NCBI GenBank assembly: GCA_004369045.1
Contig: ML213511.1
Coordinates: 397,327-461,326, forward strand
Length of the DNA stretch: 64,000 bases
Source: Heliocybe sulcata
Lineage: Eukaryota; Basidiomycota; Agaricomycetes; Gloeophyllales; Gloeophyllaceae
Reading direction: 5' to 3'
In this document: piece after piece, positions 1,766 through 53,550 of the stretch
How the letters are laid out: every line of letters begins with the position of its first letter
Position numbering within the stretch: the stretch's first letter is position 1
Notes under the pieces: model-generated
Database searches by the model: none
What the model saw: only the letters and a program-made list of their open reading frames with translations
What the model was told of the DNA's origin: nothing
Position numbers and translations under genes: made by a program

Positions 1766-1795
1766 CGGCTCTTGCCGAAGGCGTGGATATAAGCG
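1766..1795 (+). promoter_or_regulatory. CGG-N6-CCG palindrome and TATA-like box, gene A unit 1
   Basis: CGGCTCTTGCCG lies at 1,766-1,777. Eight bases later comes GATATAAG (1,786-1,793), about 65 bp before the gene A start at 1,857. The same arrangement precedes the other A copies. Confidence 0.6.
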
Positions 1796-1856
1796 GTGGC
1801 ACATCAGAACGCGCACCTACCTCCTGCCGCCACTGTGCCACTGATACTTACCACAA

Positions 1857-2588
1857 ATGTGGAGCATCTCGGACTCCATCTTTGAAGCTGGCATAGCTTC
1901 TATGTTGCCTCCAGCTCCATTCTATACATCCACCCATGCTCTTACCGGCCCATACACCACGGTAAACGGAGCCTTCCAAGACAGTAGACGGAGCCGTCTC
2001 AACCCACACGCAGACGAGGTAAGCCCAAGGAATGACGTATTCCAGGTGCAGTCAACTAACAATTAGTCACTAGTTTCACCCAATTGCAAAATGAATAACT
2101 AACCACTTCGGAAATTTCCACCACGTCACTATCACTCGCCATGATTCTGAGGATACCGTGCCCGAGGGTTCCGCCATGTGCAATGCCACAGGGAGGGACG
2201 AAGCATTGCCCACAATCATCGGAGGCACGTTTGAAAGGCTAGGCGAGAATACGCGCCTGGGGAGCAGGGGCGGGCGAAGCTGCGCGGAGAGCTTGACAGG
2301 CTTCCGAATAACGATGGGGAAGGCCACCACCAGATATCCCGCTCCTACAGCGATATACCTCGCGCGGCATGGGAAGAACGGAAGCTGGAAGGTTCTGGCG
2401 AGACACTCGAGCAGGATCTATCGCCAGTATCCACTAGTAGCCAAGTGCCCCCTCTCGATATCTGTACGGAGGACGAAGAAGTGGACAATGATGATCCCTC
2501 CATGGTCGTAGGGGAGGACTCTGCCAGCAAGGCTTGCCAGTCGTACGCAGCAATCACGGCTGGATCTCTCAAGAAATACGGGCATTAG
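1857..2588 (+). pseudogene. Gene A, unit 1 (decayed copy)
   Basis: Exon 1 (1,857-2,018) is open and nearly identical to unit 2 exon 1: it starts MWSISDSIFEAGIASMLPPA and ends NPHADE before GTAAGC. The intron carries the CAACTAAC branch-point-like sequence and ends CACTAG. Exon 2, at the position homologous to the other copies, meets a stop after six codons (FHPIAK), and further frame changes follow before the relic of the C-terminal tail near 2,580. By comparison with units 3, 4 and 7 this copy cannot make the full protein. Function unknown. Confidence 0.6.
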
Positions 2589-2850
2589 TCTGAGAGGAAT
2601 ACGGAAGCGCGTTTTGGCGTCTGGCGATTCTTGGAAATAAATCGTACATGGTATTGCCGATGTTTCTCTCTTTCATTCATGTAAAATAGCCACGTATCGT
2701 CGAATTAATATCTTCGGGTCCTGTGTGCTTCAATGATTTCCCGAACATCGTCTAGCTATTCAACCAGTTATCCGTAAAATTAATTGGGCTAGATATCATG
2801 CAAAAACATACCTTTCTAGGCCCAGAACGGCGAGGACCTAACTCCGACAT

Positions 2851-2880
2851 CGGCTTCTGCCGGCACTGGCCGTTAAAAGG
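2851..2880 (+). promoter_or_regulatory. CGG-N6-CCG palindrome and TATA-like box, gene B unit 1
   Basis: CGGCTTCTGCCG is at 2,851-2,862. Nine bases (GCACTGGCC) separate it from GTTAAAAGG at 2,872-2,880. The gene B start follows at 2,980. Confidence 0.65.
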
Positions 2881-2979
2881 TCGCGCGACGCGTGTTGTTG
2901 TCCATCCATCATCTTTACCATCATCCACCACCTGTAACCACAGTTCAGCATCATACGCTCTTCCACGGCAAAGATCTCA

Positions 2980-4332
2980 ATGGCCAGCAGTAGGATGACG
3001 CCGGGGCTAGCGAAGGCATTGCGTCAAGATGCTTCCATGCACGGCCCTGTTCTTGCACAAACGGCCGTCCCAGCGACGTTCACTCCTCGGTCGCTCGTCG
3101 CGTCGGACAACGTGATTGATGAGCCCTGCAGCTTCCAGTTCAGCGGAGGGTATGCGTATGGCCACAGAGAGTACATAGATAGATTTGAACGAGGCGCAGT
3201 GCCCGCAGAGACGGTAAGTCGTCAGGAGAGGTAGAGCCGAAGGAGGTGACTGATGTGCGGTGAAAAGGCGACATCGCCAACCATAAGGCTGGTGACCCAG
3301 CCTCAGAACAGTCCAACGGCTCTGCCGCACCTCCCAAGCATAGGATATGCTTCCGATCTGCCGGATCACCAGACGATCCAGGAGAAGATCGAGTTCGATC
3401 TTGACCGGCGGCGAGAGAGGGGAAAACGATCAGGTGACGAAGTGAGACCTGGCCAATACAGAGCGCTATCAAACAATGACTGAAAGTTCTGTAATTAGAT
3501 GTTGCTTGCCAAAGCATTACAAATTACGAACCATGTGTTGGATGCCTCACATGAATCTGCAGCTGAGCCATTCGCTACCGCACACATGCTGGAGATTGCG
3601 GTACAAAAATCCGCAGGACGGGACGAGACGGCGGAGTGGCTCAACTGTACCGACTTCAACCTTTTCAAGCAGCTCAGTCAGGAGGGACCCGCCATTGCCG
3701 TCGAAACCGTATTGACGCCGGTTCACGATGCCGGCTCAGTCCTCGATATCGACCTCTTGGAACAGCATGAGGGCTTGGGGCGGGAACTGGCGTCACTGCC
3801 ATACGTCAACGATTGCCTGGCTTCCTGCCCGGTGCAAGGTGAACCCATCACCCCCAAAGCCCTTGCCGACCTTGACGGTCTGCAGCCAGCCGCCGCGAAT
3901 AACTCAAACCTCACTCAGCTGTCGCTCCCTGGCCTCAAAACGGTTCCTTCCAACGGCAAGACCGGCGTCCACGAGAAGTCCGTCAAACCTCCTGTCAGCA
4001 ACGGCGAGGAGTCTGTGCAGGAAGGCTGCCTCTCGCCCACGGCGCGGGCCACGCTCGCTCCTACGCCTGTCGTTCTTCGTAAGAAGCCCATCCGGATCCT
4101 CGATGAGGATCTCATTGAGATAACCGAACTTGGCTGGCGAAGCCACTCCGAGCGTATCCCGCAAGCACCCCCGCTCATCGCGCTCGCCGCCGTCAGGAGC
4201 CGTGCGGCCCTCTTTCGAAACTGCGCGACGCATTGTCGGGTGATCGGCGAGCACGTCCTGCCACTCCTCCTCCCTTGGGATAAGGCAGAATTGGAGTTAT
4301 TGCGAGAGCGCGCCAGGAGGAACCGTGACTAG
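2980..4332 (+). CDS. Gene B, unit 1: three-exon gene of an unrecognised paralogous family
   Basis: Exons are 2,980-3,213, 3,268-3,441 and 3,499-4,332, joined by two short phase-0 GT-AG introns, giving about 413 residues. Exon 1 encodes a start MASSRMTPGLAKALRQ, a conserved block FQFSGGYAY and an end FERGAVPAET. Exon 2 carries PTIRLVTQPQNSP. Exon 3 is acidic and rich in Ser, Pro and Ala, and ends in a conserved C-terminal domain (about residues 325-413) with LAPTPVVLRKKPIRILDEDL, EITELGWRS and a closing LLLPWDKAELELLRERAR. No membrane segment, signal peptide or known catalytic motif is visible, and I do not recognise the family. Intron 2 ends TTCTGTAATTAG directly before an ATG that opens exon 3 in most copies, so internal initiation is possible. 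The model is strong because exons 1 and 2 have the same lengths (78 and 58 codons) in units 1 to 4. Gene A lies upstream and module C downstream. Confidence 0.8.
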
Positions 4333-4625
4333 GTCCATAGTCCTGGCGTCTCCTCGAGTATCACAAGAGATTTGGAATCCCCTTTCCACCTTCAGCCAAT
4401 TCTCTTCCTGATTTCTTGTTTCTTTGTACAATCGATATCACCGAGTGAGGAGGAGAGTGATCCCGTATTCATTTAGCTTCGCCTGCTTGTTCATTTCACC
4501 TGTTGAATATCCCGAATAAATCGACTGCTCATGAGTTCACCCTTCCCACCGAGTGAAGACCCTCAGAAGAGCTTAAACCGCATCAAGAACCAGACACGAG
4601 GCATTACAGTCCATCAATCGAAGCT

Positions 4626-4637
4626 CGGCAGACGCCG
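4626..4637 (+). promoter_or_regulatory. CGG-N6-CCG palindrome upstream of module C, unit 1
   Basis: CGGCAGACGCCG sits inside the longer imperfect palindrome GAAGCTCGGCAGACGCCGAA, 18 bp before an ATG at 4,656. Unlike the A, B and B' sites it has no TATA-like box at 8-9 bp. Confidence 0.55.
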
Positions 4638-4655
4638 AAGCAGTACAAGCGCGAA

Positions 4656-5915
4656 ATGAGTCCCCGCCACATCGCGCACCTCTCTCGTCCTTTGGGTCTA
4701 TGACCGCCAGAAATCGCCGAATCTTCGCCTGCAATGCTACCCAGCGCTTCGCAGGTAGGTCTCGGTGGATATCGCGCGGGTGCCACCGGCACCTGCAGCG
4801 TCTGTGAGTCGGCCAGCCTTCATGTCTGCACTGCAACTGCCGACAGAATGACTTCCTCTGCAGGCACCAGACGGCCAAAACCCGATAAACAAGATTATCG
4901 ACTAGTTGAGGACTGCAGTTCGAGATCCCCGGAGGTGACGAAGGTCAAAGTTGTTGTCCAAGGCGTTTGTTCGCGCGGGCTCCAGGGATCCATCCGCTCA
5001 GACCGGCCCACGATCCTCAAACCATCCTCAAGATCTGTGAAGATCGCCCGTTCAGCAAAGCATACTAGGGCGATAGCGGCGACGGACCTCTCAGACTTCA
5101 GCGCTATGGAAGACGACGATTGGCGGGATGGCGATCGCTATCCGCACAATGACGGCTCCGAGTCAGGATTTCGGATAGCCTGGGGCAAAGGGCGGAGAGC
5201 GACCGTGAAGGACAGGTGAGTTTATCTTCTTGCATGTTTTATGCGCGGGACTAGCGTAGCCTCCGGGCGCGAATCGACCGCAGTCTCACCCAGAGTAGTC
5301 GACGAGTAGTCGACGATTAAGGTGATCAAGGGACGGGCCTGCCACTGTTGAACGATCTTGAAGGTGAAATCCCTGGTCCTCCAAGCCAGTATCAATCTCG
5401 CCGGGACGATAAGGACCAAAACGCTGGGCGAGAGGGCAATGAGACGTCCAACTTAGCAAGTTACAGGAGGACAGATATAGTGAACAGCTGCCTCCCAAAA
5501 CCGATCGGCGTGGTAGCCAGTGCTGTATCTGGAGCAGCATTCGGTGGGGTACCTTCCCAGTGCTTCCGCCTATGCACCGACGAAATAATCGGAGCGCCAG
5601 TAGGGTATCTGGTAAACGGCAAGGTGTGCCAGACTACACGGATTCGGGTCAAGGTATATTCGAGCGATCGTTCGACAGGAGCCCTATGGCTGAGTTGAAC
5701 TCGGTCCGATTCCGCCAGGGTGAGCGCATGGGCCGATATCACCCGTTTCTGATCTCTGGAGACAGAGGACCCGTTCGGTATTGCCCGGACTAACGTGCTG
5801 TAGCTGATGAACGTTTTACAATGCGCAGTCTAGAAATGAGCAGGCACCATCTATCAAGACGCCTTCCGAAGGAGCAGGCTACTGTGTGGTTGGTATCTTC
5901 CGTTGCGTTCGCCAT
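4656..5915 (+). pseudogene. Module C, unit 1: multi-exon gene or relic, unrecognised
   Basis: The ATG-led frame (MSPRHIAHLSRPLGL) stops after 15 codons. Another frame stays open and is conserved between copies. Exon-like pieces include a stretch ending IASVPP.PAA before GTGAGT; an exon starting DCSSRSPEVTKVK and running to ATVKDR before GTGAGTTT (5,219); an exon with LLNDLEGEIPGPPSQ and a hydrophobic patch IGVVASAVSGAAFGG; one with FDRSPMAELNSVRF; and a last one with EGAGY. The motif SRSVKIARS is shared with C' of units 1, 2 and 5, so C and C' are related. Copies differ by indels and stops, so this unit's version is probably broken. No domain is recognised. Confidence 0.45.
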
Positions 5916-6660
5916 GAAACGTTGAGCTCACATGACACTTTTCGCGGTCCATTTTCCCTTCTATCTGCGCGGGCATTCCCAGTTCGACTGTCTCATCTAC
6001 TGGAACCTTGCACCCACCGCCCAGCAAGGCAGCAACTAGGGGGAAGTCGTGAGATGAGACCAATTGGTTACTATAGTGGATCTCCATAGGGTCCCATCGT
6101 CCCCAATGGATGCGATAGCAAAAGATGTTTGAAGGATTGGATTGATGAGGTGTTCTCCTTGCCCCGCAGCGTATTGATGCACTGACACCAGAAAAAAGAC
6201 AGTGAGAGCATATACGTTCAAACAATTGTTCGAGTCAAGTGCCTGATTTCCTCGCGCTAGTCAAGTACGAGCAGAGAGCAGAGGAGCAGAGGATGTGGGT
6301 GCAGTCGACTCCGACGCAGACTAGCATTGGCATGGTATCCGTTTGCAGACGTGGCTCGCCACGCGACGTACGCGACGCACTCATTAGGTGATAGCCGGAG
6401 AACCCATCAATTCATACTCTTTGCGCCACTCTACATAGATCTCTGTTTTGCTACGATTCCAATCGACGAGTTTTCTATGTCTCTCATACAGTGAAGGGAG
6501 GAATCTGCCAGCGCTATGGATAATGGAAGGGGCTGGCAGAGCGGTTGTCTATACCGGTACCACTACATGACGCGCCGCGTTTTCCCTTATACTTCAATCT
6601 GGACAACGTCGTAAGGTTGTATGCCTTTAAATTAGAGTCATTAATGACTGAGTCAAGGTT
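5916..6660. repeat. 3' flank of module C, repeated between units
   Basis: This stretch has no gene I can support. It matches 20,400-21,000 and, inverted, 29,190-29,960 and 37,040-37,740. A shared piece around ATCAATTGATGGGTTCTCCGG occurs inverted here near 6,410 and in the other units. A minus-strand frame at 6,221-6,036 (VFFLVSVHQYAAGQGEHL) looks like a signal peptide and is partly kept in unit 4, but the copies disagree on start and frame. Confidence 0.45.
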
Positions 6661-6699
6661 GAACAGCATAGGCTAATCATGCAGGATGCGGTCGGCTAC

Positions 6700-10191: not shown

Positions 10192-10218
10192 CGGCATCTG
10201 CCGGCGGTGGCCATAAAA
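10192..10218 (+). promoter_or_regulatory. CGG-N6-CCG palindrome and TATA-like box, gene B' unit 1
   Basis: CGGCATCTGCCG is at 10,192-10,203, followed nine bases later by ATAAAA at 10,213. The B' start is at 10,296. Confidence 0.65.
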
Positions 10219-10295: not shown

Positions 10296-11363
10296 ATGGT
10301 TTTGCAATCGCTGGGATCTCTAAAGGATAATCAGTTAAAATTGGGCTTAATGAAGACCCAAGACCGCTTGCTGCCGTCCAAGCAAGCCACCATGGAACCT
10401 GCAGCCCCTGCTGCCGCGACACGGCCACCCCATGCGCCGGACGGGTCGAATAACCCCAAAAGCGACCAAGGAATGGAGGAGGGAGGCAATCGCGAGACTA
10501 TCGCGCGCGCCGATCGCACCGATCAAGTGTCCGCAGCCGTGAAACAGGTAAGTCGTCGCAAGTTATCTGGCAGGTCAAGACGGCTTATTCAGAGCGGTTA
10601 GTCGGAGACATCCACCGTACAGGCCATGTCACAGCTACAAGACAGCGCGACCTACGCGTCGAGCGCCCCTCGCTTCGTTCACATGTTTGATATGCTCTAT
10701 TCTCTGACCACCGACGAGTTGAACGAGTACTGGGCCATGGGTACCTCGACCGAGAGGATCACCGCTCTCAACCAAACGGTGAGCGTTCCGGCGACATGTG
10801 GTTTCTCAAAGTCTGACTAATGGATCCGTGATTAGATGCGTGCTTCCACACGAACACTAATGACAGACCTTCCCGAGCAATCCGCTCCGAATCCACCTAG
10901 CGAGTGGGTCGCGACCAGGTTCGCTGCTCCGAGGCCAAAGCGACCCGAGGAGAAACCAGAGTGGTGGGACTGCGATAAGGTGTGCTACATTGAAGCTGCG
11001 CAGTCCAGCACCTGGGATGGATCCGGGGTATCCCCTCTGTCACTTCCTGCCGTCGTTACTCCTCCCGACGCCGACATGTTCCTCACCCAGAAGGAGCCCG
11101 CCGAGTTTCTCGTCAGCGACGACGACGAGATCATCTCGGGCGCGTGCCTTCCACTCCAGGCTCGGGTCATTCGGCCACCTACGCCAGTCGCTCACCGCCA
11201 GAAACTGCTCCGGATCCTGAACGGGCCACTCGCAGAGATAACCCAAGCGATTACGCCAGCGCGGGCCTGGTACTCGATGGCATACTACACGCCGGTCAGC
11301 GCTGTCGAGAAGGAGACGTCCCCTCTCACACCCGCTTGCATCGAGTGTTGCGGCAGGTTCTAA
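10296..11363 (+). CDS. Gene B', unit 1: paralogue of gene B, C-terminally shortened
   Basis: Exons are 10,296-10,547 (84 codons), 10,602-10,778 (59 codons) and 10,836-11,363, with both introns in phase 0. The product is about 318 residues. Exon 1 starts MVLQSLGSLKDNQLKLG and has an Ala/Pro-rich middle. Exon 2 has SSAPRFVHMFDMLYSLTTDE and LNEYW. Exon 3 has KRPEEKPEWWDCDKVCYIEA, a SDDDEIISG acidic run, and the family core RPPTPVAHRQKLLRILNGPL. As in gene B, exon 3 opens with ATG after TGATTAG. The frame ends at a TAA where unit 5 has Trp (GRFW), about 36 codons before the full-length end, and homology to the missing tail continues in the DNA beyond. Unit 2 has a stop at the same codon. Whether the shortened product works is unknown. 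Confidence 0.7.
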
Positions 11364-11767: not shown

Positions 11768-11779
11768 CGGCAAGTGCCG
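11768..11779 (+). promoter_or_regulatory. CGG-N6-CCG palindrome upstream of module C', unit 1
   Basis: CGGCAAGTGCCG occurs in the context AGCTCGGCAAGTGCCGAAAA, 18 bp before an ATG at 11,798. The flanks fit TCGG-N6-CCGAA. Confidence 0.6.
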
Positions 11780-12599: not shown

Positions 12600-13870
12600 G
12601 ATGAGAATCCAAATCTCTGACCACTGGACTTTGATCACTGGGATACCGTCGAGACCACTTTCATGGCCGAACTATTATCAAGCCGTCCCTACGGCAAGGT
12701 TTCGGGCCAAAACCAGGGAGGGGGCAGAACGTGCGGTTCGAGGAGATTGGATGGGAACAGGTAGGGAGATACTGCTGCCTTCTCAAAGGCATCAGCGGGG
12801 AAGCCAGCACGAGACTACCAGGAGAGGCAATCCGTGAGTTCTTCCGCCCGAACGCTGCTGAAGACTTTCAATGGTAGATAGGATGACCGCGACCGCGAGT
12901 AATCGCATCGTACACCGTCCAATCTAGTGTCCGAAGCCAAACGTCGTGCCAGTAGTACCAGGATCGTGGCGTCCAAATTTCCGACAGCGCAGTGGACAGC
13001 GCCCGTCAGAAGCCCAGCCGCGGAGGTATGCCAGCTGGCACATTTTGCTCTCGTATCCAGCCCTCCTGATCCGTTTGCTCGAATCTACAGGATAACCATT
13101 CTCGCCCCGTCCAAGCAGAGATCCCGAGGCTGTCTCCCCCATTTCCCAAGACGCTCCACCGGCAGCTTCAGCCCGTCTGCCGGCCAAACACGGTGGAGGT
13201 AGGAGATTGAGTCTAGCGCCTCCTCAGGTAATTTCCAAGGGCTCCGAACGACGTGCAGGGCATGCGATAGTAGAAGCATGGAACTGGTCGAGTATTATTC
13301 GGTGAGCGTCGTCCAGCGTGTGTCATCCCACCCAAGTCTTGAAACAGGAGACTGAAACCATAGCCGTCCAAGTCCTTTTCCGCGTTTGGTACAGCGTTCA
13401 GTCAAACCAGTCGAGAAGGAGATGGCAGCAGGAGATACAGAATCGCACATGTCGAGACAAGATGCAACAGTACTTGTGCGTTGTGGACGCGGCGCTTGCC
13501 GGATGACTTACCGGAGTTAGCCGCGATTCCTACTGTGGCCACCACTTGCCACACGCAAAGGAGGTGTCGTATGTCAAGTCGTTACAAAACTTGGCGGGGA
13601 ACCGTTCGAAGGTAATATATTCATGATGTTTACCCTGGTTCGCAGAAAAATACAGGACCTGATTCCGAAGCCCCGACCGCACCATGACCGCACGGAAGAA
13701 TCTCGCTCATGACTACCTCAGGCGCAGTATGACCAAGGCTCATGCTCCCACGACGTAACCAGCCAGCACGATCCACGCCAGCATCCTCAACGAAGGCGCG
13801 ACCTTGGATCAACGCTAACTGCAGATCCGCTTGGGGAATAGACGCGTTTTCACAACCCGATATCACGGCA
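12600..13870 (+). other. Module D, unit 1: unrecognised multi-exon coding-like segment
   Basis: Conserved exon-like pieces between units 1, 2 and 5 include SEAKRRASSTRIVASKF with TAQWTAPVR and PAAE before GTATGCC, then an exon opening D.HSR.VQAEIPRLS with PFPKT. In unit 5 that exon reads AEIPRLSLPFPKTFHPQFWP. A later exon has ETIAVQVLFRVWYSVQSNQS. Splice-like borders (GTATGCC to TCTACAG, GTGAGCG to GAAACAG) are shared between copies. It may be the 3' half of module C', because C' always precedes it, but no continuous model could be made. It ends with the segment that also opens the window. Confidence 0.4.
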
Positions 13871-16235: not shown

Positions 16236-16263
16236 CGGCCCTTGCCGAAGGCGTGGATATAAG
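16236..16263 (+). promoter_or_regulatory. CGG-N6-CCG palindrome and TATA box, gene A unit 2
   Basis: CGGCCCTTGCCG (16,236-16,247) is followed after eight bases by GATATAAG (16,256-16,263). The A start is 63 bp further on, at 16,327. Confidence 0.65.
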
Positions 16264-16326: not shown

Positions 16327-16924
16327 ATGTGGAGCATCTCGGACTCCATCTTTGAAGCTGGCATAGCTTCTATGTTGCCTCCAGCTCCATTCTATACATC
16401 CACCCATGCTCCTACCGGCCCATACACGATGGTAAACGGAGCCTTCCAAGACAGTAGACAGAGCCGTCTCAACCCACACGCAGACGAGGTAAGCCAAAGG
16501 AATGGCGTATTCCAGGTACAGTCAACTAACAATTAGTTATTAGTTTCACCCAAAGGGAGAGCAAATAACCAACCGCCCGGAAACCTTCCACCACGTCACT
16601 GTCACCCGCCACGACTCTGACAATACCGTGCCCGAGGGTTCCACCATGTACAATGCCACAGGCACAGACGAAGAATATGAGGATGCATCGCCCAAAATCA
16701 TCAGAGGCACGTTTGAAGGGCTAGGCGAGAATACGCGCCTGGAGGAGCAGCAGTGGGCGAAGCTGCGCGGAGAGCTGGACAGCCTTCCGAATTACGATGA
16801 GGAAGGCCACCACCAGACATGCCGCTCCTACAGCGATATACCTCACGCGCCATGGGAAGACCGGAAGCTGGAAGGTTTTGGCGAGACAATTCGAACAGGA
16901 CCTGTCGCCAGTATCCACCAGTAG
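16327..16924 (+). CDS. Gene A, unit 2: two-exon acidic protein, frame-shifted near the C-terminus
   Basis: Exon 1 is 16,327-16,488 (54 codons) and exon 2 starts at 16,544 with a phase-0 intron. The acceptor GTTATTAG is the one that keeps frame in all intact copies. The product is about 180 residues. Exon 2 has FHHVTVTRHDSD, a GTFEGLGENTRL block and SYSDIPHAPWEDRKLEG. Relative to units 3 and 4 there is one extra base near 16,890. The frame therefore ends at 16,924, and the conserved acidic tail (DDSSTVV.ED...SYAAVAA) lies out of frame at 16,970-17,070. The short form may be non-functional. No known domain; acidic and probably soluble. Confidence 0.55.
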
Positions 16925-17334
16925 CCAAGTGCCTCCTCTCGATATCTGTACGGAGGACGAAGAAGTGGACAATGATGATTCCTCCACGGTCGTCGGGGAG
17001 GACTCTGCCAACAAGGCTCGCCAGTCGTACGCAGCAGTCGCGGCTGGATCTCTCAAGAAATACGCGCATTAGTCTGAGAGGAATACGAGAGCGCGTTTTG
17101 GCGTCTGGCGATTCTTGGAAATAAATCGTCCATGGTATTGCAGATGTTCCTCTCTTTCATTCATGTAAAATAGCCATGTATCGTCGAGTCAATATCTTTG
17201 GGTCCTGTGTGCTTCAATGATTTCCCAAACATCTTCTAGCTATTCAACGAGCTATCCGTGAAATTAATCGGGCTAGATGTCATGCAAAAACATACCTTTC
17301 TAGGCCCAGAACGGCGAGGACCTAGCTCCGTCAT

Positions 17335-17364
17335 CGGCTTCTGCCGGCACTGGCCGTTAAAAGG
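17335..17364 (+). promoter_or_regulatory. CGG-N6-CCG palindrome and TATA-like box, gene B unit 2
   Basis: CGGCTTCTGCCG lies at 17,335-17,346, nine bases before GTTAAAAGG at 17,356-17,364. The B start is at 17,464. Confidence 0.65.
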
Positions 17365-19119: not shown

Positions 19120-19131
19120 CGGCAGACGCCG
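19120..19131 (+). promoter_or_regulatory. CGG-N6-CCG palindrome upstream of module C, unit 2
   Basis: CGGCAGACGCCG with the same long flanks as unit 1, 18 bp before the ATG at 19,150. Confidence 0.55.
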
Positions 19132-22693: not shown

Positions 22694-22720
22694 CGGCATC
22701 TGCCGGCGGTGGCCATAAAA
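22694..22720 (+). promoter_or_regulatory. CGG-N6-CCG palindrome and TATA-like box, gene B' unit 2
   Basis: CGGCATCTGCCG (22,694-22,705), nine bases, then ATAAAA at 22,715. The B' start is at 22,798. The X start is at 22,263 on the other strand, so the site could serve both. Confidence 0.65.
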
Positions 22721-24273: not shown

Positions 24274-24285
24274 CGGCAAATGCCG
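24274..24285 (+). promoter_or_regulatory. CGG-N6-CCG palindrome upstream of C', unit 2
   Basis: CGGCAAATGCCG in the context GCTCGGCAAATGCCGAAAAC, 19 bp before the ATG at 24,305. Confidence 0.6.
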
Positions 24286-25079: not shown

Positions 25080-26360
25080 CTGGACTTGATCACTGGGATA
25101 CCGGCGAGACCAGTTTCATGGCCGAGCTATTTATCAAGCCGTCCCTACAGCAAGGTTTCAGGCCGAAACCAGGGAGGTGACAGAACGTTCGATTTGATTT
25201 GAGGAGATTGGATGGGAACAAGTGGGGAGATACTGCTGCCTTCTCAAAGCCATTAGCGGGGAGGCCAGCACGGACTACCAGGAGACGCCATCCGTGAGTT
25301 CTTCCGCCCACTTCTGCCTAGAGGCTGACGAAGCGGTTCAACCACAGAAAGGACGACCGCGACCGCGAGTGAAAGCATCGTCCACCCTCCAATCTGGTGT
25401 CCGAAGCCAAACGTCGTGCCAGTAGTACCAGGATCGTGGCGTCCAAATTTTCAACAGCGCAGTGGACAGCGCCCGTCAGAACTCCTGCCGCGGAGGTATG
25501 CCAGCTGGCACCACCCGCTCTCGTATCCATCCCTCCTGATCCGTTCGTCCGAATCTACAGGATAACCATTCTCGCTCCGTCCAAGCAGAGATCCCGAGGC
25601 TGTCTCCCTAGGCCTCATTTCCCAAGACGCTCCACCGGCAGCTGGCCCGTCTGTTGGTCCAAACACGGTGGAAATAGGAGACAGAGGCTAACACCTCCTT
25701 AGCTGCCTTCCAAGAGCAGGGCATACGACAATGGGTGACGGCGAAAAGATGGAACTGATCAAGTATTAATCGGTGAGCGTCGTCCAGCGTGTGTCATCCC
25801 ACCAAGCATTGAGAAAGGGGACTGAAACCATAGCCGTTCAGACACTTCTCCGCGTTCGGTACAACGTTCAGTCAAACCAGTCGAGAAGAAGATAGCAGCA
25901 GGAGATACAGTATCACACACTGCACAGGTCGAGACAAGATGCAACGGACAGACGTGCGTTTGTGGACGCGGCGCTTGCCGAATGACTTACCGACGTCCGG
26001 AGTTAGCCGCGACTCCTACTGTGGCCACAGTCCACTTGCCACACGCAAAGGAGGTGTCGCAGCTGTTACAAACTTGGCGGGGAATCGTTCGAAGGTAATA
26101 TATTTATGACGTTTACTCTGTGTTGCAGAACAATACAGGACTTGATTCCGAAGCCCCGACCGCACCATGACCGAGAGGGAAGAACCTCGCCCATGAGTAC
26201 CTCAGGCGCAGTATGACCAAGGCTCGTGCTCCCACTCGACGTAACCAGCCAGCACGATCCACACCAAAATCAACGCCTATCGAGGACGAGGTAACGGAGA
26301 GAGCGGACGCCGCGGAAGTCAACGCAGACTTGCGCATGGGTTTCGCAGTACTCATATTGC
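25080..26360 (+). other. Module D, unit 2: unrecognised multi-exon coding-like segment
   Basis: This is the counterpart of 12,600-13,870, with exon-like borders GTGAGTTC (25,291) to CCACAG, GTATGCC (25,496) to CTACAG and GTGAGCG (25,772). Shared translated pieces are SEAKRRASSTRIVASKFSTA and VQAEIPRLSP, followed here by a stop in the frame that units 1 and 5 keep open. It ends with the D-tail near 26,260. Probably decayed. Confidence 0.4.
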
Positions 26361-30816: not shown

Positions 30817-30828
30817 CGGCATTCGCCG
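30817..30828 (-). promoter_or_regulatory. CGG-N6-CCG palindrome upstream of C, unit 3
   Basis: CGGCATTCGCCG inside GCTTCGGCATTCGCCGAGCT. Confidence 0.55.
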
Positions 30829-32577: not shown

Positions 32578-32607
32578 CCTTTTAACGGCCAGGGCCGGCA
32601 GGTGCCG
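32578..32607 (-). promoter_or_regulatory. CGG-N6-CCG palindrome and TATA-like box, gene B unit 3
   Basis: CGGCAGGTGCCG on the plus strand at 32,596-32,607. Nine bases nearer the gene is GTTAAAAGG on the minus strand (32,586-32,578). Confidence 0.65.
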
Positions 32608-33621: not shown

Positions 33622-33649
33622 CTTATATCCACGCCTTCGGCAAGAGCCG
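33622..33649 (-). promoter_or_regulatory. CGG-N6-CCG palindrome and TATA box, gene A unit 3
   Basis: CGGCAAGAGCCG at 33,638-33,649. GATATAAG on the minus strand at 33,629-33,622, eight bases away. Confidence 0.65.
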
Positions 33650-39025: not shown

Positions 39026-39037
39026 CGGCGTCTGCCG
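39026..39037 (-). promoter_or_regulatory. CGG-N6-CCG palindrome upstream of C, unit 4
   Basis: CGGCGTCTGCCG inside GCTTCGGCGTCTGCCGAGCT. Confidence 0.55.
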
Positions 39038-40762: not shown

Positions 40763-40792
40763 CCTTTTAACGGCCACCGCCGGCAGAAGCCG
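40763..40792 (-). promoter_or_regulatory. CGG-N6-CCG palindrome and TATA-like box, gene B unit 4
   Basis: CGGCAGAAGCCG at 40,781-40,792. GTTAAAAGG on the minus strand at 40,771-40,763, nine bases apart. Confidence 0.65.
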
Positions 40793-41051: not shown

Positions 41052-41772
41052 CTAATGCCGCTGTTTCTTCAGAGATCTAGCCGCGACTGCCGCGTACGAC
41101 TGGTGACCCTTGTGGCCAGAGTCCTCCGCTACGACCGTGGACGAATCCTCGTCGTCTTGTTCTTCGTTGTCCGCAGAAGTCTCGAGTGCAGGCACATGGC
41201 TATCGGGGAATACTGGCGACAGGTCTTGATCGAGTGTCTCGCCAGAGCCTTCAAGCTTCCGGTGTTCCCATGACGCGCGAGGTATATCACTGTAGAAACG
41301 GGATACTTTGTCTTGCCCTTCCTCTTCGTTATCCGGAAGGCTGTTAAGCTCGCCTCGCAGCTCCGACCACTGCCACTCCTCCAGAAGTGTATTCTCGCGA
41401 TGCCCTGCAAACGTGCCTTCGTTGAATGCGGCCGAGCCCTCGTCATTTTCTTCGTCCGTCCATGTGGCATTGCCCATGGTGGCGCCCTCCGGCTCGTTAT
41501 CATCAGAATTGTGGCGAATAACGGTGGTGTGGTGGAAGGATTTCGAGTGGTTGGTTGTTTGTTTTGTTTGCGGGCGAAACTAATAACCAATTCTTAGCTG
41601 ACTGCACCCGGAATACGCCATTTCTTGGGCTTACCTCGTCTGCGTGTGGATTGAAACGGCTCCGCCTACTGTCTTGGAACGCTCCATTTACCGTGGTGGA
41701 TGTATAGAATGGAGCTGGAGGCAACATAGACGTTATGCCAGCTTCAAAGATGGAGTCCGAGATCCTCGACAT
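41052..41772 (-). CDS. Gene A, unit 4: intact two-exon acidic protein
   Basis: Exon 1 is 41,772-41,635 (46 codons, MSRISDSIFEAGITSMLPPA). Exon 2 is 41,579-41,052 (175 residues plus stop), phase 0, for about 221 residues in all. Exon 2 includes FNEGTFAGHRENTLLEEW, LRGELNSLPDNEEEGQ, SDIPRASWEHRKLEGSGE, and an acidic tail with DNEEQDDEDSSTVVAED and SYAAVAARSLKKQRH. Relative to unit 3 all length changes are whole codons. The retained frame in two diverged copies suggests the protein is, or was recently, under selection. Function unknown. Confidence 0.75.
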
Positions 41773-41851: not shown

Positions 41852-41863
41852 CGGCAAGGGCCG
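41852..41863 (-). promoter_or_regulatory. CGG-N6-CCG palindrome, gene A unit 4
   Basis: CGGCAAGGGCCG. The TATA position reads GGATATGAG on the minus strand, a weakened box. Confidence 0.6.
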
Positions 41864-43689: not shown

Positions 43690-44460
43690 ACATTCTCCTT
43701 GGTGCAGCGTTCGAGGGCTGTGGAGTCGCGGCTAACTCCGGACGTCGGTTCCAAGTCATCCGGCAAGCGCCGAGTCCACATAGCCGTTGCCTTCTGTTTC
43801 CTGCACTGTGGGCGAGAGCCTGCACTGTGGGGCACGCTCGCTTCACCATCGACCATTGTATCTGCCTGCTGCTTTCTCCTCCTTGAATAGTCTGATCTGG
43901 ACGATGTACCAAACACGGAAAAGGATTTGGGCTATGGCTTAGGACACACGCACTGCAGAACACTCGCCGGACAATACTATCATTTCACCATCTTCCGCTA
44001 TGACATGCCGTGCACGTCGCTTGGACCATGTGGAAATTAGCCAAGGAGGTAATGGACTCCGTCTCCTGTTCTCACCGTGTCTGCACTTGTGGACGGGCCA
44101 AAACTGCGGGTGGAACGTCTTGGGAAACGGGAGAGATAGCCTGGGGATCTCTGCTCGTACGGGGCAAGAACGGCTGCGAAATGCATCCTGTAGACATCAG
44201 CTAAGGGCGAATACCAGACGGGCGTTGACAAGTACGTTCGTGGAAAGCTGGACGCCGCGATCCTGGCACCACCGTTTGCTCCGGACTTCAGATTGGACGG
44301 TGTCGAAGCGAATGTGTCTTCGCAGGACGGGATTTAGACGGTACTCCCCAGCGTACTTGCTCAGACCGACCCTCGATGCTCGCAGCGCAGGTTTCCTGCA
44401 GAGATTGATGTGAGGGCGCCTTGCGTCCATTCTTGCAGCCTGGAATATGCTGTCATACAA
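43690..44460 (-). other. Module D, unit 5 (inverted)
   Basis: The minus strand keeps the clearest D exon: from GATGCATTTCGC (44,200) it reads AEIPRLSLPFPKTFHPQFWP VHKCRH up to GTGAGAACAG, where units 1 and 2 are damaged. Upstream and downstream borders match units 1 and 2. The D-tail repeat follows to about 43,680. No domain is recognised. Confidence 0.4.
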
Positions 44461-45403: not shown

Positions 45404-45415
45404 CGGCACTCGCCG
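45404..45415 (-). promoter_or_regulatory. CGG-N6-CCG palindrome upstream of C', unit 5
   Basis: CGGCACTCGCCG inside TTTCGGCACTCGCCGAGCTT. Confidence 0.55.
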
Positions 45416-46970: not shown

Positions 46971-46997
46971 TTTTATGGTCACCGCCGGCAGATGCCG
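46971..46997 (-). promoter_or_regulatory. CGG-N6-CCG palindrome and TATA-like box, gene B' unit 5
   Basis: CGGCAGATGCCG at 46,986-46,997. ATAAAA on the minus strand at 46,976-46,971, nine bases apart. Confidence 0.65.
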
Positions 46998-47039: not shown

Positions 47040-47480
47040 GCGTGCAATCTACGCTGATATCCGCTAGAACGCTGGAAAGAATTCCCGAAGAATTCTATGG
47101 TGGCATATGGACCCCGACACCGCGACGCTGGTGTATGCTCAGTTAATGGAATCTCGGGCGTCCTATGACATATTCTGACTAACTGTAGCTCTGCGCTACA
47201 CTGGAGGGTACAATCTCCCATCGGTGAACAAGCTCCATCCATGGACTCCTCCGCTTACAACATGGCCAGACCCATGGGAGCCGATTACCGCGTCTTCGCT
47301 TGGGGTTTATGCTGTCTGCAGGGCAGCGATGACGACCAGACTTGCTAGTTCAGTCCATAAACGGACTGTTACGCTGGAATACCATCTTGCCTTCGAGTGG
47401 TGTCGGGCACTATCGTATAGCCAGGCTTGTCTTTGGTGGTGGCACCGGTCGATCCGTCGAGCGGAGGCATTGCCGCTTCG
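47040..47480 (+). other. Segment X start, unit 5
   Basis: The plus-strand ATG at 47,241 opens MDSSAYNMARPMGADYRVFA WGLCCLQG and stops after 33 codons. The match to unit 2 fades after about 47,470. Confidence 0.4.
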
Positions 47481-47700
47481 GTGGAGCTAAGCTATTATGG
47501 TTCGGCTCTTGTCATCGATTCAGGACATACGCTCCCGTGGCCGAGTTGTGGCAGGAAGGAAGAGAGGCGGGCGTGCGCTGTTGTGCCACCGCTAGCACCA
47601 CGCCTTCGGCAAGAGCCGGTGCATGGACCTTGGCGATGCCTTTGTTCTGTAGCCTGGCGGATCGTCTGTCGTAAACTCTCTGGACTAGGCCGTGACCGGA
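47481..47700 (-). promoter_or_regulatory. Orphan gene A promoter relic
   Basis: CGGCAAGAGCCG (47,607-47,618) stands in the same context as the A promoters (CACGCCTTCGGCAAGAGCCG), but no A exon follows. Instead the sequence joins segment X. It is the trace of a deleted A-B-C block. Confidence 0.5.
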
Positions 47701-48574
47701 GCTAGGTGTTTTATCCTGTGTCGCCCTGTATGCAATTCACCCCCCTGTACCCGCTTGCGATGAACCCCACCTGAATTCGCAGTTTACCATCCGTATGACA
47801 GATAGGTATCGTCTACTGACGCAGTGATATTATTCTAATTGTCTTGCGACCTACGCTACATATAACATTGCCTTCGTGAACCGTGGACCGCTCTGCCCGG
47901 CTGTAGCATCTAAGCGAGTGCTGCTATTGTTGGAGGACTTGCTCGATGTGCGCCTCGCAGCATAAGCTCTTGCAGTGATGGTCTAAACTACAGGTCGGCA
48001 TATCGATGCATGGATTAGATCGTAGTCGTGGACCAGAGACGAGAGTGTTCCGAGATACATGAGATCTCTTGGGCGCATACGTCCTGCACTCACTCGGTAT
48101 GAACATCGAGTGTTCTAGCAACTATGGTACTTCATAAAGTCCCATTTCCGTCGCGCTTCAAGAGTTCATTTGTAGATCAGTGTACATGAGACCAGTACTG
48201 TGCCACTGGTCCACGACATTCGACATTCATTTATCAAGCGGAACCGACGGAGAGAATTAATTATGGCGGCCTTCACTTGAAGGCCATCCTTTGCGTCAGC
48301 CTTGAGAAATTCGACCAAGTTCAAGCCGCTTTCGATTGGCTATCATACCAGTCGTAGATGGATTGTGCCCACCACTAGTTGCGGCCAACTCCGATCTAGT
48401 GTAGCAGAAGACCACCGGAATGGCGGTCTGCTCCGACCATCCTTGAAATGCGCTGTGTAATTCTTTATATATAGATACATTCGAATGTTGTAGGATCGAA
48501 GGGCGCTACAGTGTATGCAAACGCACGAACTGAGAGCATAAATATTGAATTTGGGATCCAGCTGTTGTTGTGAA
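47701..48574. other. Spacer between units 5 and 7
   Basis: I see no gene, module match or RNA here. Confidence 0.6.
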
Positions 48575-50480
48575 TTTGATGGGTTCGGGTATCACCTATT
48601 GACAGCGGGAGTCGCGTGGCAAGCCGCGTCCACAAAAGCATGCCATTCTCGAGCCTTTTGACTCAAGCTGTAGCTGTCTGGCAGTCTTGGCTTGTAGCCT
48701 TTCCTCGACGTTCTCACTGGACTCCCGAGGTCGACTCTGCTTATTGATGTGAACGCTTACGCTTCTGACACCTTTTCCTGAATACTTAGTGAAACGGTAC
48801 GCAGCGGACCAGTGAACTCTCATCAAGCCAGTGTCTCGAACATCTTCCGCTATCGCATATCCTCGAGAAGCCGGGACGCGTTAAATATCCGTCATAGGAG
48901 CCAGGAGACTTCATCTCTCTATTCGCTCAGAGTAGGAGGCCCGGGAACTGGCGACGACAATGAGTGGAATATTTTGGAAGGCGAGGGAGCGGAACTCAGC
49001 ATCTCTTCTTGGACAACGGATGGACAAGTTGCACAAAGCATCCTCAGATTCAAGGATAGCGGGAAGGGAGAATACGACAGGAAATGTGGATGGTATCACA
49101 ACCCTGCCCACGCGACAGGGATGACTAGCTGGCTCGATGGTGGGGCCTCGAACGCCACAATTCCGCTCCCTGAACGGTTACTCCCGCCCCAGACGTCAAT
49201 ATGACAATGCTGGACTGGTTTTCTCTCTTCAGCGGACGACATCCAGGCAGTGTAGACGAAGGTACTCACTCGGACGAGATCCCAATGCTATTGTCCGTGT
49301 TGCTGCTACAGGCCATATGCAAAGCGACGCAGCGCTTTTTGGAGGCAGGTAAACCGGCTGTCATGACTCTGGACCAATGTCTGAGCAGTACGTCTCATCG
49401 TGGACTGAGCCCGGATTCCCTTACCCAGTTACCGTCGCCCAGATACCTCAGGCATGGGTCCCAGTCATCGCACTCGTCAAATACTCACGTACTCTGAAGA
49501 ATGCGGTCTACACCCGGATGACCCTAGCCAGTCAATCGATCGAGTCCTGTTGCGGATGAGTCTATGCAGCGCCAGCACCAAATGACGATGTGCGTCAGAC
49601 AATCCCCGTTCAGGTATCTGCAGAAGAGGTCAAAGACTTACGGACTGCCTCCTCATCCAGGACTCGCTCTCGCCACATCTTGTTTGACGGCTCCAAGGCA
49701 GTACCCGCACCTCCACTCGCTCAGGACGTTCCCTTCCTCAACCGTAATATGTATCAGGACCCACCCTCGCATTCTCGAGGATCTTCGACATCAGCAGGGT
49801 TGCTCAGATTCTCATGTTGTTGATGTTGACGCTACGCACACTCCGGCGTCATCTCAAACATCGGACACTCATAAAGATGAACTCACCGACCATGTCATAG
49901 TTTCGACGGCCCTCCATTTCCCTCTCATCCTCAGCCGCTCGCATTAATTCCCCAAGTTGAGAGCTTAGGGTGGGAATCAAGTCGTCTTCATGCCTTGCGT
50001 GCCAATGTGCGTCCCGGCTCTGCAAGCCACTATCATGGAGTGGAATCACGGTCCACCGGACGAGCTTGTTGTCGTCGCTATCGGACGCGTCACAGAGGCT
50101 GCCGATCGCCCCTGATCTTGAGCGTTCGTATGCCGCTTGCGATTGCCTCTGCGCCCAATGGAAGCCTGGTGCCTTCTCAAACGACAACTTTACGACTCTC
50201 GATTCCGGAGCGTCGAATATTCAGTTCAATGAATAGACGTCCCAAGCCTCGCTTGCGATCGTCCTGGACCTATTGATGCCGTGAACCAGGCGGTTGTGGT
50301 GGTACGTACGCGACCGTTCGGAGACTCACAGGACCTGCAGATACCGGTGGCACGGTCAGGAAGCTACCCAGGATACACTCAGGAACTAGTCGGCGACTTG
50401 TCTGAAAGGGATCCGAGGACTTCTGGCGGTCATGAACATGCAGGACTGAAGAGAGGTTCGGTGTGGCGGGAACTCGTCGT
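48575..50480 (-). pseudogene. Module C and 3' flank, unit 7 (diverged)
   Basis: The order is as in the other C modules but the sequence is much more diverged. The start codon position reads ACG (ACGAGTTCCCGCCAC). The region with VPPVSAGPVSLRTV matches ASVPPAPAAS, and the 3' flank (48,575-48,700) keeps the ATGGGTTC/GGTATCACCTA block. Some frames stay open (for example minus 50,187-49,849), but none matches the C exons well enough to call a gene. Confidence 0.35.
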
Positions 50481-50495
50481 GCCCTTGTTATGTTT

Positions 50496-50507
50496 CGGCA
50501 TCTGCCG
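50496..50507 (-). promoter_or_regulatory. CGG-N6-CCG palindrome upstream of C, unit 7
   Basis: CGGCATCTGCCG inside TTTCGGCATCTGCCGAGCTT. Confidence 0.55.
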
Positions 50508-50824
50508 AGCTTCGCTGATGGGACAGCAATGCCTCGTGTTTCGTTCTTGACGCGGATCAGGCTTCGTTGGAGGGTCCTGACGCAGTCAGAGGTAAATTGG
50601 ATATATAAACGGTGAAATCCAAACGGTGAAATAGGCAAGCAGCGAAACTAAAGGACTACGTGAACACTCTCCTCCCCGACAGCTCCGCCAATCGTACGCA
50701 AGGCAAACAAAATCAGACAAGAACTCGACGACGAATCTATCATCTACCTATACACTACAAGCCCATGAGCAGCAAAACGGAAAGCGAACTTGTTTATATA
50801 CTGGCATCGGCTCCTTCAGCGAAT

Positions 50825-52165
50825 TTACTCATCGCTCACGTCGGCGCCCTCGCGCAACTGTGCCTTATCCCTTCCCTCCCCGCGGAGGACGAGGGGCATG
50901 ACCATAGCACCCATCATCGGATGCTGCGCAGCTAGGTCGCGCCAGAGATGATCCTGCTTCTCGATGGCCGCGCACGTGATGGGCGGGGCCGGTTTGTCGG
51001 CAATGCTTGGAGGCAACTCGTGCGCGCGCGGATACCAAGAGGGTGCCTGTGCGGGGCCGCACCCACCAGCTTCACTGATCTCTGCGACGCCCTCGTTGAG
51101 AATCTGGAGTAACTTGTTGCGGTGTGCGACAGCCGGCGGAGGGCGAATCACCCGCGATGCGAGCGGAAGCTGTCCGCCTTGCACGAACTCGTCGTCGACG
51201 CTGACAAGAGGCTCCACGGACTTCTCCTGGACGAGCTCAGCGGGGTAGTTGACAGGGGTGATGACGGTGGGGAACGAGAGAGATGACATGTCAGAGTCAA
51301 CCGACGACGTGGGCCAATGGTCGTCAATGTCGGCGAATGGGTTGAAACAGATGCGTCCCATAGGATGTGGCTCACGCAGTACCAGATCATCGTCAGTGCA
51401 CGACAGGTTGGCGATTTCCTGCATGAGAAGCTCGTGTTCGCGCAGGATGTCTTCATCGAGGGCAGCAACTGCGTCGGTCACCGTGGACAGGGTGGCATCA
51501 ACGGCAGTGATGCTCCTTCCATGCGTGAACTCCTCGCAGGTGCTGAAGTCGTTCTGCAGACTCGGGAATCGTCGCAACCCATTGGAGCGCGAGCAGGCGC
51601 GGGCTGTTTCGCCTAGGTTGGTATTTTGTTTATCTGCGAGGAGCGGCAGCTAAATACCAATTTTTTAGTTGGTATTTCAATGGTAACAGCAGCAGGGAGC
51701 ACTCACTTTGTTGTCCGGCTTGGTCACAATCCTTGGCGGCGCCCTGTTGTCGGATCCGAGACTCTCCTCCATTGTCGAGCAATGGGGGACATCAGGGGCA
51801 TTCGTTGTGTCGAGGGCGCTAGGTGCAGGCGTTGCATTGTCCTGCGACTGCGTTACCAACCGTATCGTTGGCATCATTGCCTAATCGCCGCAGATCAGCT
51901 ACCTTCCTATGCTATACTTCTCGTGACGACTTACTGTCTCCGCCGGCACCGATCCTTCCAAAAATCTGTCCATGTAATCCCGGAGGGCAGCATACTCACC
52001 CTGGACTTCATCGATAACATTGTCCGACTCGAGGGGCAATTGCGGTAGCACCGTCTCTGGGCTAGCTGAAGGAGCCGGGACTGTACCATGTTTGGAGCCA
52101 CATAAACGTAAGAAAGTCTTCGCAAGACCCGACTTGATCGTGCTGGCCACCAGTGAGAATGCCAT
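50825..52165 (-). CDS. Gene B, unit 7: diverged but intact family member
   Basis: Exons (minus) are 52,165-51,935 (77 codons), 51,880-51,707 (58 codons) and 51,649-50,825 (274 plus stop), phase 0, for about 409 residues. Exon 1 (MAFSLVASTIKSGLAKTFLR ... YMDRFLEGSVPAET) and exon 2 (PTIRLVTQSQD) are clearly homologous to the others. Exon 3 begins LPLLADKQNTNL after ATTTAG, so the ATG that opens exon 3 elsewhere is absent. Its core, RVIRPPPAVAHRNKLLQILN and APSWYPRAHELPPS, is closer to B' than to the other B genes, while exons 1 and 2 are B-like. This makes it a bridge between the two groups, or a recombinant. The exon 2 length is kept to the codon despite strong divergence, strong evidence for a real gene. 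Confidence 0.8.
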
Positions 52166-52253
52166 GTTGTAAGAGGGTTCAATGCTGACGGATGCTCGTA
52201 GGTGGTGGGCGGTGGTCAAGTTGATTATCGATAAAAGGTCTACATTGTTCGTC

Positions 52254-52279
52254 TTTTATGCCGCCGCCGGCAGACGCCG
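52254..52279 (-). promoter_or_regulatory. CGG-N6-CCG palindrome and TATA-like box, gene B unit 7
   Basis: CGGCAGACGCCG at 52,268-52,279. ATAAAA on the minus strand at 52,259-52,254, eight bases apart. Confidence 0.65.
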
Positions 52280-52555
52280 ATGCCGGTACCACGCCCTGGT
52301 CTGTTCTGGACCTGGAAAGGTATCTACGTACGTGGTGTTGACTTTGAACAACATACAGATGAATCCCTGCTGGCTGAAATACAATTAAAAGTCAATCAAA
52401 AGTCGTTGAGAATCCAGCACTCGATATTATCCTCGTAGTCAAAAGAAACGAAATCTAGTAACACTACCAACTACGATGTGCCGTCCAATAATTTCGACAG
52501 AGCGCGGTGCCCTGTCCCTGATAGACTCGCCGACTCGCCCGTGAACCATATCCCC

Positions 52556-53452
52556 TCATTCGCAGGCCCACTCGTACGGGAGACTGGTCCGCTTTGGCAG
52601 GAATGCAAGAGGCGGCGGCGTGGAGTGGCGAGTGCATCCGTTCCCCCAGTCTTCAAGAAACTTGGAAGGGAAGACTCGCCGCGGCTGCGGCGTCGAGGAG
52701 AAAGGGTTCTCGATAGCTCGCTTCTTCTGAGGTCTCGCTACCATCGAGGTGCGTGTACTTTCATTGTCGCAATCAAAACCTTCGGGTACCACAGTGGATG
52801 AGCCGTCGTCATCCTCTTCATCTTCCGACAAATTGTTGAGGTGAGGCACCTCGGCATCGGGGGAAATGGGTGAAAGGTCTTGGTTGTTTGTCTCGCTGGA
52901 ATTCTCAGACGCGCGGTCTTCCCATGGGGTCCGCGGTATCTGGATGTAGACATGAGCCCACTCTTCGTATCTCTCCTCTCCGTCCTGCGGAAGACTGAGA
53001 AGCTGATCTCGCAGCCTCGATCGCTCCCACTCCTCCGCAGGCAAATCTTCGTCAAGCCCTGCAAACGCGACTTTGATAATAATGCCCAATGCCTGCTCAT
53101 ATTCTTGGCCACCCTCGGGAGTACCTCGCCTTGGGGCGCCCCTCAGCAAATCATCCAAATAACCATACCGATTGGCAGTGGCATGGCGGTCGAGTTCTCG
53201 GCGGTTGGTGGTTATGTTTACTGTAGGGTAAAACTAACGACTAAGCTGTCAGTCAATTGTATCCCCAAATAACGCGGTTTCATGGCTTACCTCGCCCGCA
53301 AATGGGTTAAGACGGCTTCGACGAGCGCCATGAACGTTCCAGTTGGTCAGGTCGTTGCTGCTGGTAGTGGCATGGGCGAACACATGCAGTGGATTCGGAC
53401 GCCAAATGGGCGCTTCAGCAGCGGTAAAGAGGTGATGGGCGAGTCCCTGCAT
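52556..53452 (-). CDS. Gene A, unit 7: longest two-exon acidic protein
   Basis: Exon 1 is 53,452-53,291 (54 codons, MQGLAHHLFTAAEAPIWRPN to NPFAGE). Exon 2 is 53,233-52,556 (225 residues plus stop), phase 0, for about 279 residues. The shared blocks are diverged but in order: KVAFAGLDEDLPAEEWERS, LRDQLLSLPQDGEE, IPRTPWEDRASE, and DDDGSSTVVPEG. Unlike the other copies it continues some 60 residues past the acidic tail with a basic, Pro-rich end (KKRAIENPFSSTPQPRR, RHSTPPPLAFLPKRTS), which may be the ancestral length. No recognised domain. Confidence 0.75.
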
Positions 53453-53538
53453 TGGCTGGTATGTATCGGTGGCTCGGGCGTGGTAGGTAGGGAAGAGACG
53501 TGCATTCACTGATGTGCCACTGATTACCATCACAGCTT

Positions 53539-53550
53539 CGGCAAGTGCCG
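53539..53550 (-). promoter_or_regulatory. CGG-N6-CCG palindrome, gene A unit 7
   Basis: CGGCAAGTGCCG with CTTCGG/CCGG flanks. The TATA position is degenerate here. Confidence 0.6.

Follow-up and report, generated by a model that had tools for sequence, protein, structure and literature searches.

Why does the same palindrome, CGGC-N4-GCCG, stand in front of gene after gene in one duplicated array of the basidiomycete Heliocybe sulcata? We addressed this question in a stretch of 64,000 nucleotides of contig ML213511.1 (assembly GCA_004369045.1, forward strand, positions 397,327-461,326; the window and C9, respectively, in what follows), and scanned the genome of 31.6 Mb and 51 contigs for the same site. 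A sequence-only reading of the window had proposed that this dyad, of the CGG-N6-CCG type, places a gene family under a single regulator. The dyad indeed lies at equivalent places of the A, B, B', C and C' promoters and recurs on another contig, but it is not private to the repeated modules. As judged from the alignments, the palindrome is retained while genes and flanks diverge, and we consider it likely, with a probability of roughly 0.68, that it is bound by a single sequence-specific transcription factor, a dimer that acts genome-wide.

Palindromes of the gene array

The window contains 29 exact matches to CGGC-N4-GCCG, compared with a dinucleotide-shuffle mean of 1.43 (standard deviation 1.18, maximum 6). 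The 22 sites counted earlier are all present and correspond to the promoter positions; the exact total of 29 further includes four second palindromes, which overlap the first in four B promoters (2861, 17345, 32586 and 40771), and three copies in a repeat termed D. The array itself reaches upstream of the window and spans about 379.8 kb to 451 kb of C9, with repeat units that are forward on its left side and inverted on its right, and the gene models place each gene on the 3' side of its palindrome. Its 37 sites comprise 29 promoter positions, five second B-promoter palindromes and three repeat-D copies; the set of 29 C9 promoter sites used below excludes the latter two groups and a lone site at C9:351762 (38 sites in the examined C9 stretch). 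In window coordinates, the sites are:

1766..1777, plus strand: palindrome CGGCTCTTGCCG, A promoter of unit 1, TATAAG 10 bp downstream
2851..2872, plus strand: double palindrome CGGCTTCTGCCGGCACTGGCCG, B promoter of unit 1, then TTAAAAG
4626..4637, plus strand: palindrome CGGCAGACGCCG, C promoter of unit 1, exact match
10192..10203, plus strand: palindrome CGGCATCTGCCG, B' promoter of unit 1, strict YCGGCANNTGCCGR form
11768..11779, plus strand: palindrome CGGCAAGTGCCG, C' promoter of unit 1, strict form
13490..13501, plus strand: palindrome CGGCGCTTGCCG, repeat D, no adjoining TATA-like box
16236..16247, plus strand: palindrome, A promoter of unit 2, exact match
17335..17356, plus strand: double palindrome, B promoter of unit 2, exact match
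19120..19131, plus strand: palindrome, C promoter of unit 2, exact match
22694..22705, plus strand: palindrome, B' promoter of unit 2, strict form
24274..24285, plus strand: palindrome, C' promoter of unit 2, strict form
25969..25980, plus strand: palindrome, repeat D, exact match
30817..30828, minus strand: palindrome, C promoter of inverted unit 3, exact match
32586..32607, minus strand: double palindrome, B promoter of inverted unit 3, strict form at 32596
33638..33649, minus strand: palindrome, A promoter of inverted unit 3, exact match
39026..39037, minus strand: palindrome, C promoter of inverted unit 4, exact match
40771..40792, minus strand: double palindrome, B promoter of inverted unit 4, exact match
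41852..41863, minus strand: palindrome, A promoter of inverted unit 4, TATA-like box TATGAG
43761..43772, minus strand: palindrome, repeat D, exact match
45404..45415, minus strand: palindrome, inverted C' promoter, exact match
46986..46997, minus strand: palindrome, inverted B' promoter, strict form
47607..47618, minus strand: palindrome, Ax promoter upstream of B', aligned part without recognisable A coding sequence
50496..50507, minus strand: palindrome, Cx promoter of unit 7, strict form
52268..52279, minus strand: palindrome, Bx promoter of unit 7, exact match
53539..53550, minus strand: palindrome, Ax promoter of unit 7, strict form, TATA-like box lost

The site at 47,607 had been regarded as an orphan; a site is present there, but it belongs to a diverged A promoter (Ax). 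Repeat D lies near unit ends (340, 13490, 25969 and 43761) and carries the palindrome, without a TATA-like box, in three of its four copies; one copy has a run of N at a distance of about 500 bp. The palindrome at 13490, which no TATA-like box adjoins, is probably not a module promoter.

Retention of the palindrome in diverged promoters

The compiled set of 34 sites (29 from C9, three from C10 and two from a family termed E) was picked throughout by exact match. Its consensus is YCGGC-N4-GCCGR, with inner bases that are mostly A first and T last (T in 29 of 34). CGGC/GCCG had been described as constant between variable inner and outer bases; the invariance of the core holds, but the flanks are constrained too, with a pyrimidine before the core in 33 sites and a purine after it in all 34. 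Because a search for exact matches can return only invariant sites, a fairer test was to hide the 12 core bases and to seek promoter copies by the similarity of their flanks, repeat D being excluded. This masked test covered 30 copies (8 A, 5 B, 2 Bx, 4 B', 5 C, 2 Cx and 4 C'), nine of which were queries chosen for having the site. Each of the 21 non-query copies was spanned by at least one alignment, and 20 of them were exact (29 of 30 when the queries are included); the single exception, TGGCAGTTGCCG at about C9:379.9 kb, carries a C to T change. Inverted CGG triplets at a fixed 6-bp spacing likewise occur in 20 of these 21 copies, and in 34 of 34 sites of the exact-match set. We also compared all gap-free 4-N4-4 windows (157 in A, 153 in B and 150 in C, 150 bp each side) in alignments of 7 A, 11 B and 11 C promoters, again chosen by exact match: the all-invariant windows were the palindrome and, in B, a window offset from it by a single base.

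Recent tandem and inverted duplication could in principle account for such uniformity, the palindrome being a functionless hitch-hiker. Duplication is clear, recent copies being more than 90% identical, and two A copies with broken frames still hold the site. However, synonymous divergence (dS) amounts to 1.35-2.37 between B and B' and to 0.86-0.94 between A and Ax_r7, and many neutral positions have therefore changed; by these estimates the neutral sites of B versus B' are near saturation, yet the core persists in all but one of the non-query copies. Moreover, the inner four bases vary, a paralogue of the C10 gene g2 keeps the site 124 kb away from it, and the strict dyad is enriched outside the arrays (see below). 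All together, these observations make hitch-hiking very improbable.

A TATA-like box accompanies many of the sites, at 10 bp from the palindrome in A (three of seven copies have the box), 11 bp in B (5/5), 9 bp in Bx (2/2) and 10 bp in B' (4/4). The box described earlier near the palindrome in A, B and B' is thus found in 14 of 18 A, B, Bx and B' promoters, but at 9-11 bp and not at 8-9 bp. C promoters have a weaker TACAAG at 6 bp in three of five copies, and neither box nor TACAAG was seen in the two Cx and four C' copies. The C and C' sites had been placed just before an ATG; C and C' do have this ATG, but both Cx copies read ACG and no long shared frame follows, so that its value as a landmark is doubtful.

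The fixed distance to TATAAG/TAAAAG in B, Bx, B' and three A copies raises the possibility that the palindrome is itself a core-promoter element, an extension of the TATA box resembling the TFIIB recognition element (BRE) and read by general factors. The palindrome is nevertheless kept where the box has changed or disappeared (Ax, C', Cx and the g2 paralogue), the box being the less durable of the two, and the combination of palindrome and box is not enriched outside two clusters. The BRE adjoins TATA, and neither the spacing nor the dyad shape of the palindrome fits it. We therefore give the core-promoter explanation very little credence.

Other blocks accompany the palindrome. A promoters (for example 1766-1802) and the g1 promoters of C10 have in common a second block, GTGGCAC, 18 and 22 bp past the palindrome, respectively. 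In C, Cx and C' promoters the kept block consists of ACACGAGGCA, the palindrome in the setting GCTCGGCNNNNGCCGAA, and CCGCCAC.

The strict dyad across the genome and in other families

The strict form YCGGCANNTGCCGR occurs 56 times in the genome, against seven occurrences of a reversed control; the Markov expectation is 9.4-11.4 for the strict form and 6.6-7.9 for the control, from models built on 116 kb of sequence. The control thus fits the model, and the strict dyad exceeds it. Twelve of the strict sites lie in the array, three in the C10 clusters and 41 elsewhere (Poisson P about 1e-11 or less). We read 13 of these 41 sites, which are not a random sample: ten represent every perfect TCGGCANNTGCCGA dyad located outside the clusters in a listing of 50 of the 56 sites, and three were hand-picked. 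Five of the 13 lie 21-241 bp upstream of the evident ATG of an unrelated gene:

eL27 (PF01777): strict site 84 bp before the ATG
G-alpha (PF00503, E 6e-9, partial protein, below cut-off): strict site 241 bp before the ATG
F-box gene (PF12937): strict site 21 bp before the ATG
two genes without a Pfam match: strict sites 160 and 204 bp before the ATG

Strict sites also precede unrelated genes, so that the modules share the site with other genes, and a regulator peculiar to the module genes, as first envisaged, is not supported, given 41 sites outside the arrays where 9-11 were expected genome-wide. Occurrence before unrelated genes had been named as the result that would speak against the single-regulator proposal; the outcome is divided, the loose form CGGC-N4-GCCG being at background and the strict form being enriched, in part before unrelated ATGs. 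The promoter bias of the strict dyad outside the arrays is based on few cases.

A genome scan near TATA-like boxes, which the sequence-only reading had suggested, was dominated by array members: the palindrome followed by TAHAAG within 14 bp was found 25 times (reversed control 13), with 20 cases in the C9 array, two on C10 (750.9 and 770.0 kb) and three elsewhere. With TATAAA there were three cases (control 4), one being a third C10 site at 752,369, and with TATAWR 15 (control 16), nine of them outside the two clusters.

The C10 sites precede genes other than those of the array, namely g2 and two copies of g1, which share 77% identity over 1.76 kb. When the g2 protein served as a query, one paralogue was returned (C10:876997-877546). 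This gene, identified only through its protein sequence, has TCGGCACGTGCCGA at the homologous place, its core lying 63 bp before the ATG. Its promoter (TCGGCACGTGCCGAGAAGAGATTGAAAC, compared with TCGGCTTCTGCCGAGAAGAGATATAAAC in g2) has kept the core, whereas the inner bases and the TATA-like box have changed; a prediction was thus passed, once. That family members carry the site is borne out by the masked copies and by this exact paralogue site; the third family E copy has a single mismatch. Both g2 (C10:752434-753201) and its paralogue contain an internal repeat, two FIE[E/N]AL..ALA[S/T]S.IT segments, and no Pfam family above cut-off was found in the g2 protein.

The palindrome followed 10-40 bp on by GTGGCAC was found 13 times (control 3): six times in C9, twice at C10 g1, twice in family E and three times elsewhere. 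Family E is located at C2:2080999-2082719 and at 691-693, 730 and 742-745 kb of C10, with parts on C12, C13 and C14; copies match the one on C2 at 66-78% identity and contain many small indels, and two have the palindrome and GTGGCAC at their 5' end. No common open frame was seen in the two copies compared. Family E copies could be decayed repeats, and they lend weak support to a shared site.

The composition of the strict form also suggests a different class of factor, since YCGGCANNTGCCGR contains the E-box CANNTG, and the g2 paralogue has CACGTG in the middle of its site. A basic helix-loop-helix (bHLH) factor bound to CANNTG within CGG-CANNTG-CCG would overlap with our proposal and differ from it only in the class of the factor. 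However, CANNTG is missing from 20 of the 34 compiled sites (including 6/7 A, 4/5 B, 4/5 C, g2 and both E), and it is CGG/CCG that is constant in the exact-match set and kept in the masked test. A bHLH factor is, in our view, improbable.

Several results weigh against our preferred explanation, a single dimeric factor. Genome-wide, the loose form shows no enrichment (769 occurrences, 1.56 per 64 kb, against 779 for the reversed control and 590-718 under Markov models), and the same holds for its combination with a TATA-like box once the two clusters are set aside; of the 29 exact promoter sites on C9, 17 do not have the strict form. Of the 13 outside sites read, one (L058) falls within a long open frame, three (L060, L064 and L065) are on the 3' side of the single Pfam-named gene nearby and four (L059, L062, L063 and L068) are without an evident gene start. 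The third E copy, found by DNA similarity, has a core mismatch, and a protein comparison between the C9 and C10 clusters gave nothing convincing (best E 0.002). Zn2Cys6 domains (PF00172) have at least 20 matches in the genome and none on C9 or C10, which agrees with the earlier remark that no such protein lies in the window.

Two or more related dimeric factors might reconcile some of these results, one acting on the array sites and the other, away from the array, on the strict form: the strict form is enriched elsewhere and the loose form is not, and A and C have their own inner bases. But the 12 strict array promoter sites include members of A, B, Bx, B', C, Cx and C', and no sequence feature cleanly splits two classes. 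We consider such a division of labour unlikely, and retain a single genome-wide factor as the preferred explanation.

Array genes, candidate regulator and known systems

What do the genes behind these promoters encode? Representative models, in window coordinates, are:

2980..4332, plus strand: B gene of unit 1, three exons, about 402-413 residues, two models (acceptor of intron 1 ambiguous), no known domain
10296..11363, plus strand: B' gene of unit 1, three exons, 318 residues
32842..33559, minus strand: A gene of inverted unit 3, two exons (acceptor inferred), 220 residues, open, candidate PAM2 SRLNPHADEFRP across the exon junction
52556..53452, minus strand: diverged A gene of unit 7, two exons (acceptor inferred), 279 residues, open, motif SRLNPFAGEFYP
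1857..2588, plus strand: A copy of unit 1, frame broken by an in-frame TGA and a frameshift, promoter site intact
16327-17072 and 41052-41772: further A copies, of unit 2 and inverted unit 4

B and B' are homologous, with three exons each. Open models were obtained for 10 of the 11 B-type copies tried (four B, two diverged Bx and four B'), and the one without such a model is a B copy that lies before the start of the window. The B' genes in units 1 and 2 terminate earlier than the other two B' copies. The ratio of non-synonymous to synonymous divergence (dN/dS) is 0.30-0.60 across all pairs, and B and B' therefore evolve as coding genes. Pfam returned no domain in B and, for B', A and two C10 proteins, only matches below curated cut-offs. 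An AlphaFold model of B exon 3 was not confident (mean predicted local distance difference test score 36), and no fold search was based on it; a PDB profile search gave matches only at E 0.6-0.7, and a search of viral contigs with the same exon found no relative. In protein searches of the genome, B and A were each found only in the C9 array.

Two-exon models of A are open in A_r3, A_r4, Ax_m1 and Ax_r7 and broken in A_u1 and A_u2. Across the intron, whose inferred acceptor lies inside the motif, five of the six copies read encode SRLNPHADEFHP-like letters, xxLNxxAxEFxP, and the sixth has an L to F change. PAM2 (PF07145) scored 17.2 bits in A_u2 and 15.5 bits in A_r3, below the curated cut-off of 20, and was not found in Ax_m1 and Ax_r7 at E 0.05. 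The letters correspond to the PAM2 consensus as printed in PMC9249222, and A is a candidate PAM2-like protein that may be a ligand of poly(A)-binding protein (PABP).

No long common frame was seen in C, Cx and C', which have many indels downstream of the promoter, and these loci are therefore perhaps non-coding RNAs or decayed genes. At the C loci (4626-5800 and the C' and Cx copies), the promoter is better conserved than the transcript. Scans of the window for Rfam families (gathering threshold) and for tRNAs returned nothing. An apparent NCS1-type (purine/pyrimidine) permease gene, named by eye, flanks the array at 54855-56722 and is without an exact site.

How might the palindrome work? From its two CGG triplets with a fixed 6-bp gap, we propose that its factor is of the zinc-cluster (Zn2Cys6) type, a class assignment that we hold about as probable as its opposite; one such factor would serve all sites. 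A homodimer would dock upstream of the TATA box at a distance of about two helical turns (18-20 bp between centres), where it would touch the footprint of TBP, TFIIA and TFIIB, and would switch all modules together, along with its other targets. We lean slightly towards activation over repression. Because the factor would serve other genes too, the array probably joined an existing regulon, into which it would have been wired as duplication spread the site.

A more far-reaching interpretation, which we offer as a long shot, is that of a fast-evolving, lineage-restricted array (PABP-binding PAM2 protein A, disordered B, frameless transcript C) that captured the operator of a general growth-linked regulator (ribosomal protein, G-alpha), so that independent families in two clusters would be fired as one programme, possibly selfish or post-transcriptional. 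More generally, YCGGCANNTGCCGR is a genome-wide site with natural replicates, about 30 promoter copies diverged around a retained site. It provides a handle for finding a fungal regulator, and several families without known function enter one candidate regulon. In the open-access papers searched, none of the five dyad spellings tried was found, nor was CGGN6CCG together with Zn2Cys6, a result limited to those spellings and papers.

Among known systems, Ume6 is a zinc-cluster protein, and its target, upstream repression sequence 1 (URS1), contains TCGGC, as do sites described here, but without the N4 dyad. The sites of Ppr1 (Saccharomyces cerevisiae) and UaY (Aspergillus nidulans), TCGG-N6-CCGA, belong to the zinc-cluster CGG-N6-CCG class. 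The palindrome resembles them in its inverted CGG triplets, its 6-bp gap, the pyrimidine before and the purine after. It differs in that the inner C and G are invariant (by site selection), in that many sites adjoin TATA, and in its neighbours, here a gene array without known function, eL27, G-alpha and an F-box gene. Free gap bases, a narrower trait of Ppr1/UaY-type sites, are not seen: the last position is mostly T, and it is the strict A..T form that is enriched genome-wide. According to PMC4245848, Gal4 and Ppr1 contact CGG with a spacing set by the linker, and a relationship between UaY and PPR1 appears as a reference title in PMC3998117. On the protein side, A recalls Ustilago Upa1, one of the fungal PAM2 proteins treated in PMC4466420 and PMC9249222, by its LNPxAxEFxP; in contrast to Upa1, FYVE, ankyrin and RING domains were not found in A_u2 (Pfam, E up to 10), and its PAM2 scores are below cut-off. 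The regulatory site itself is thus of an already known kind, and what is unusual is its use by array families not found elsewhere in the genome, next to TATA and with a candidate PABP-binding protein.

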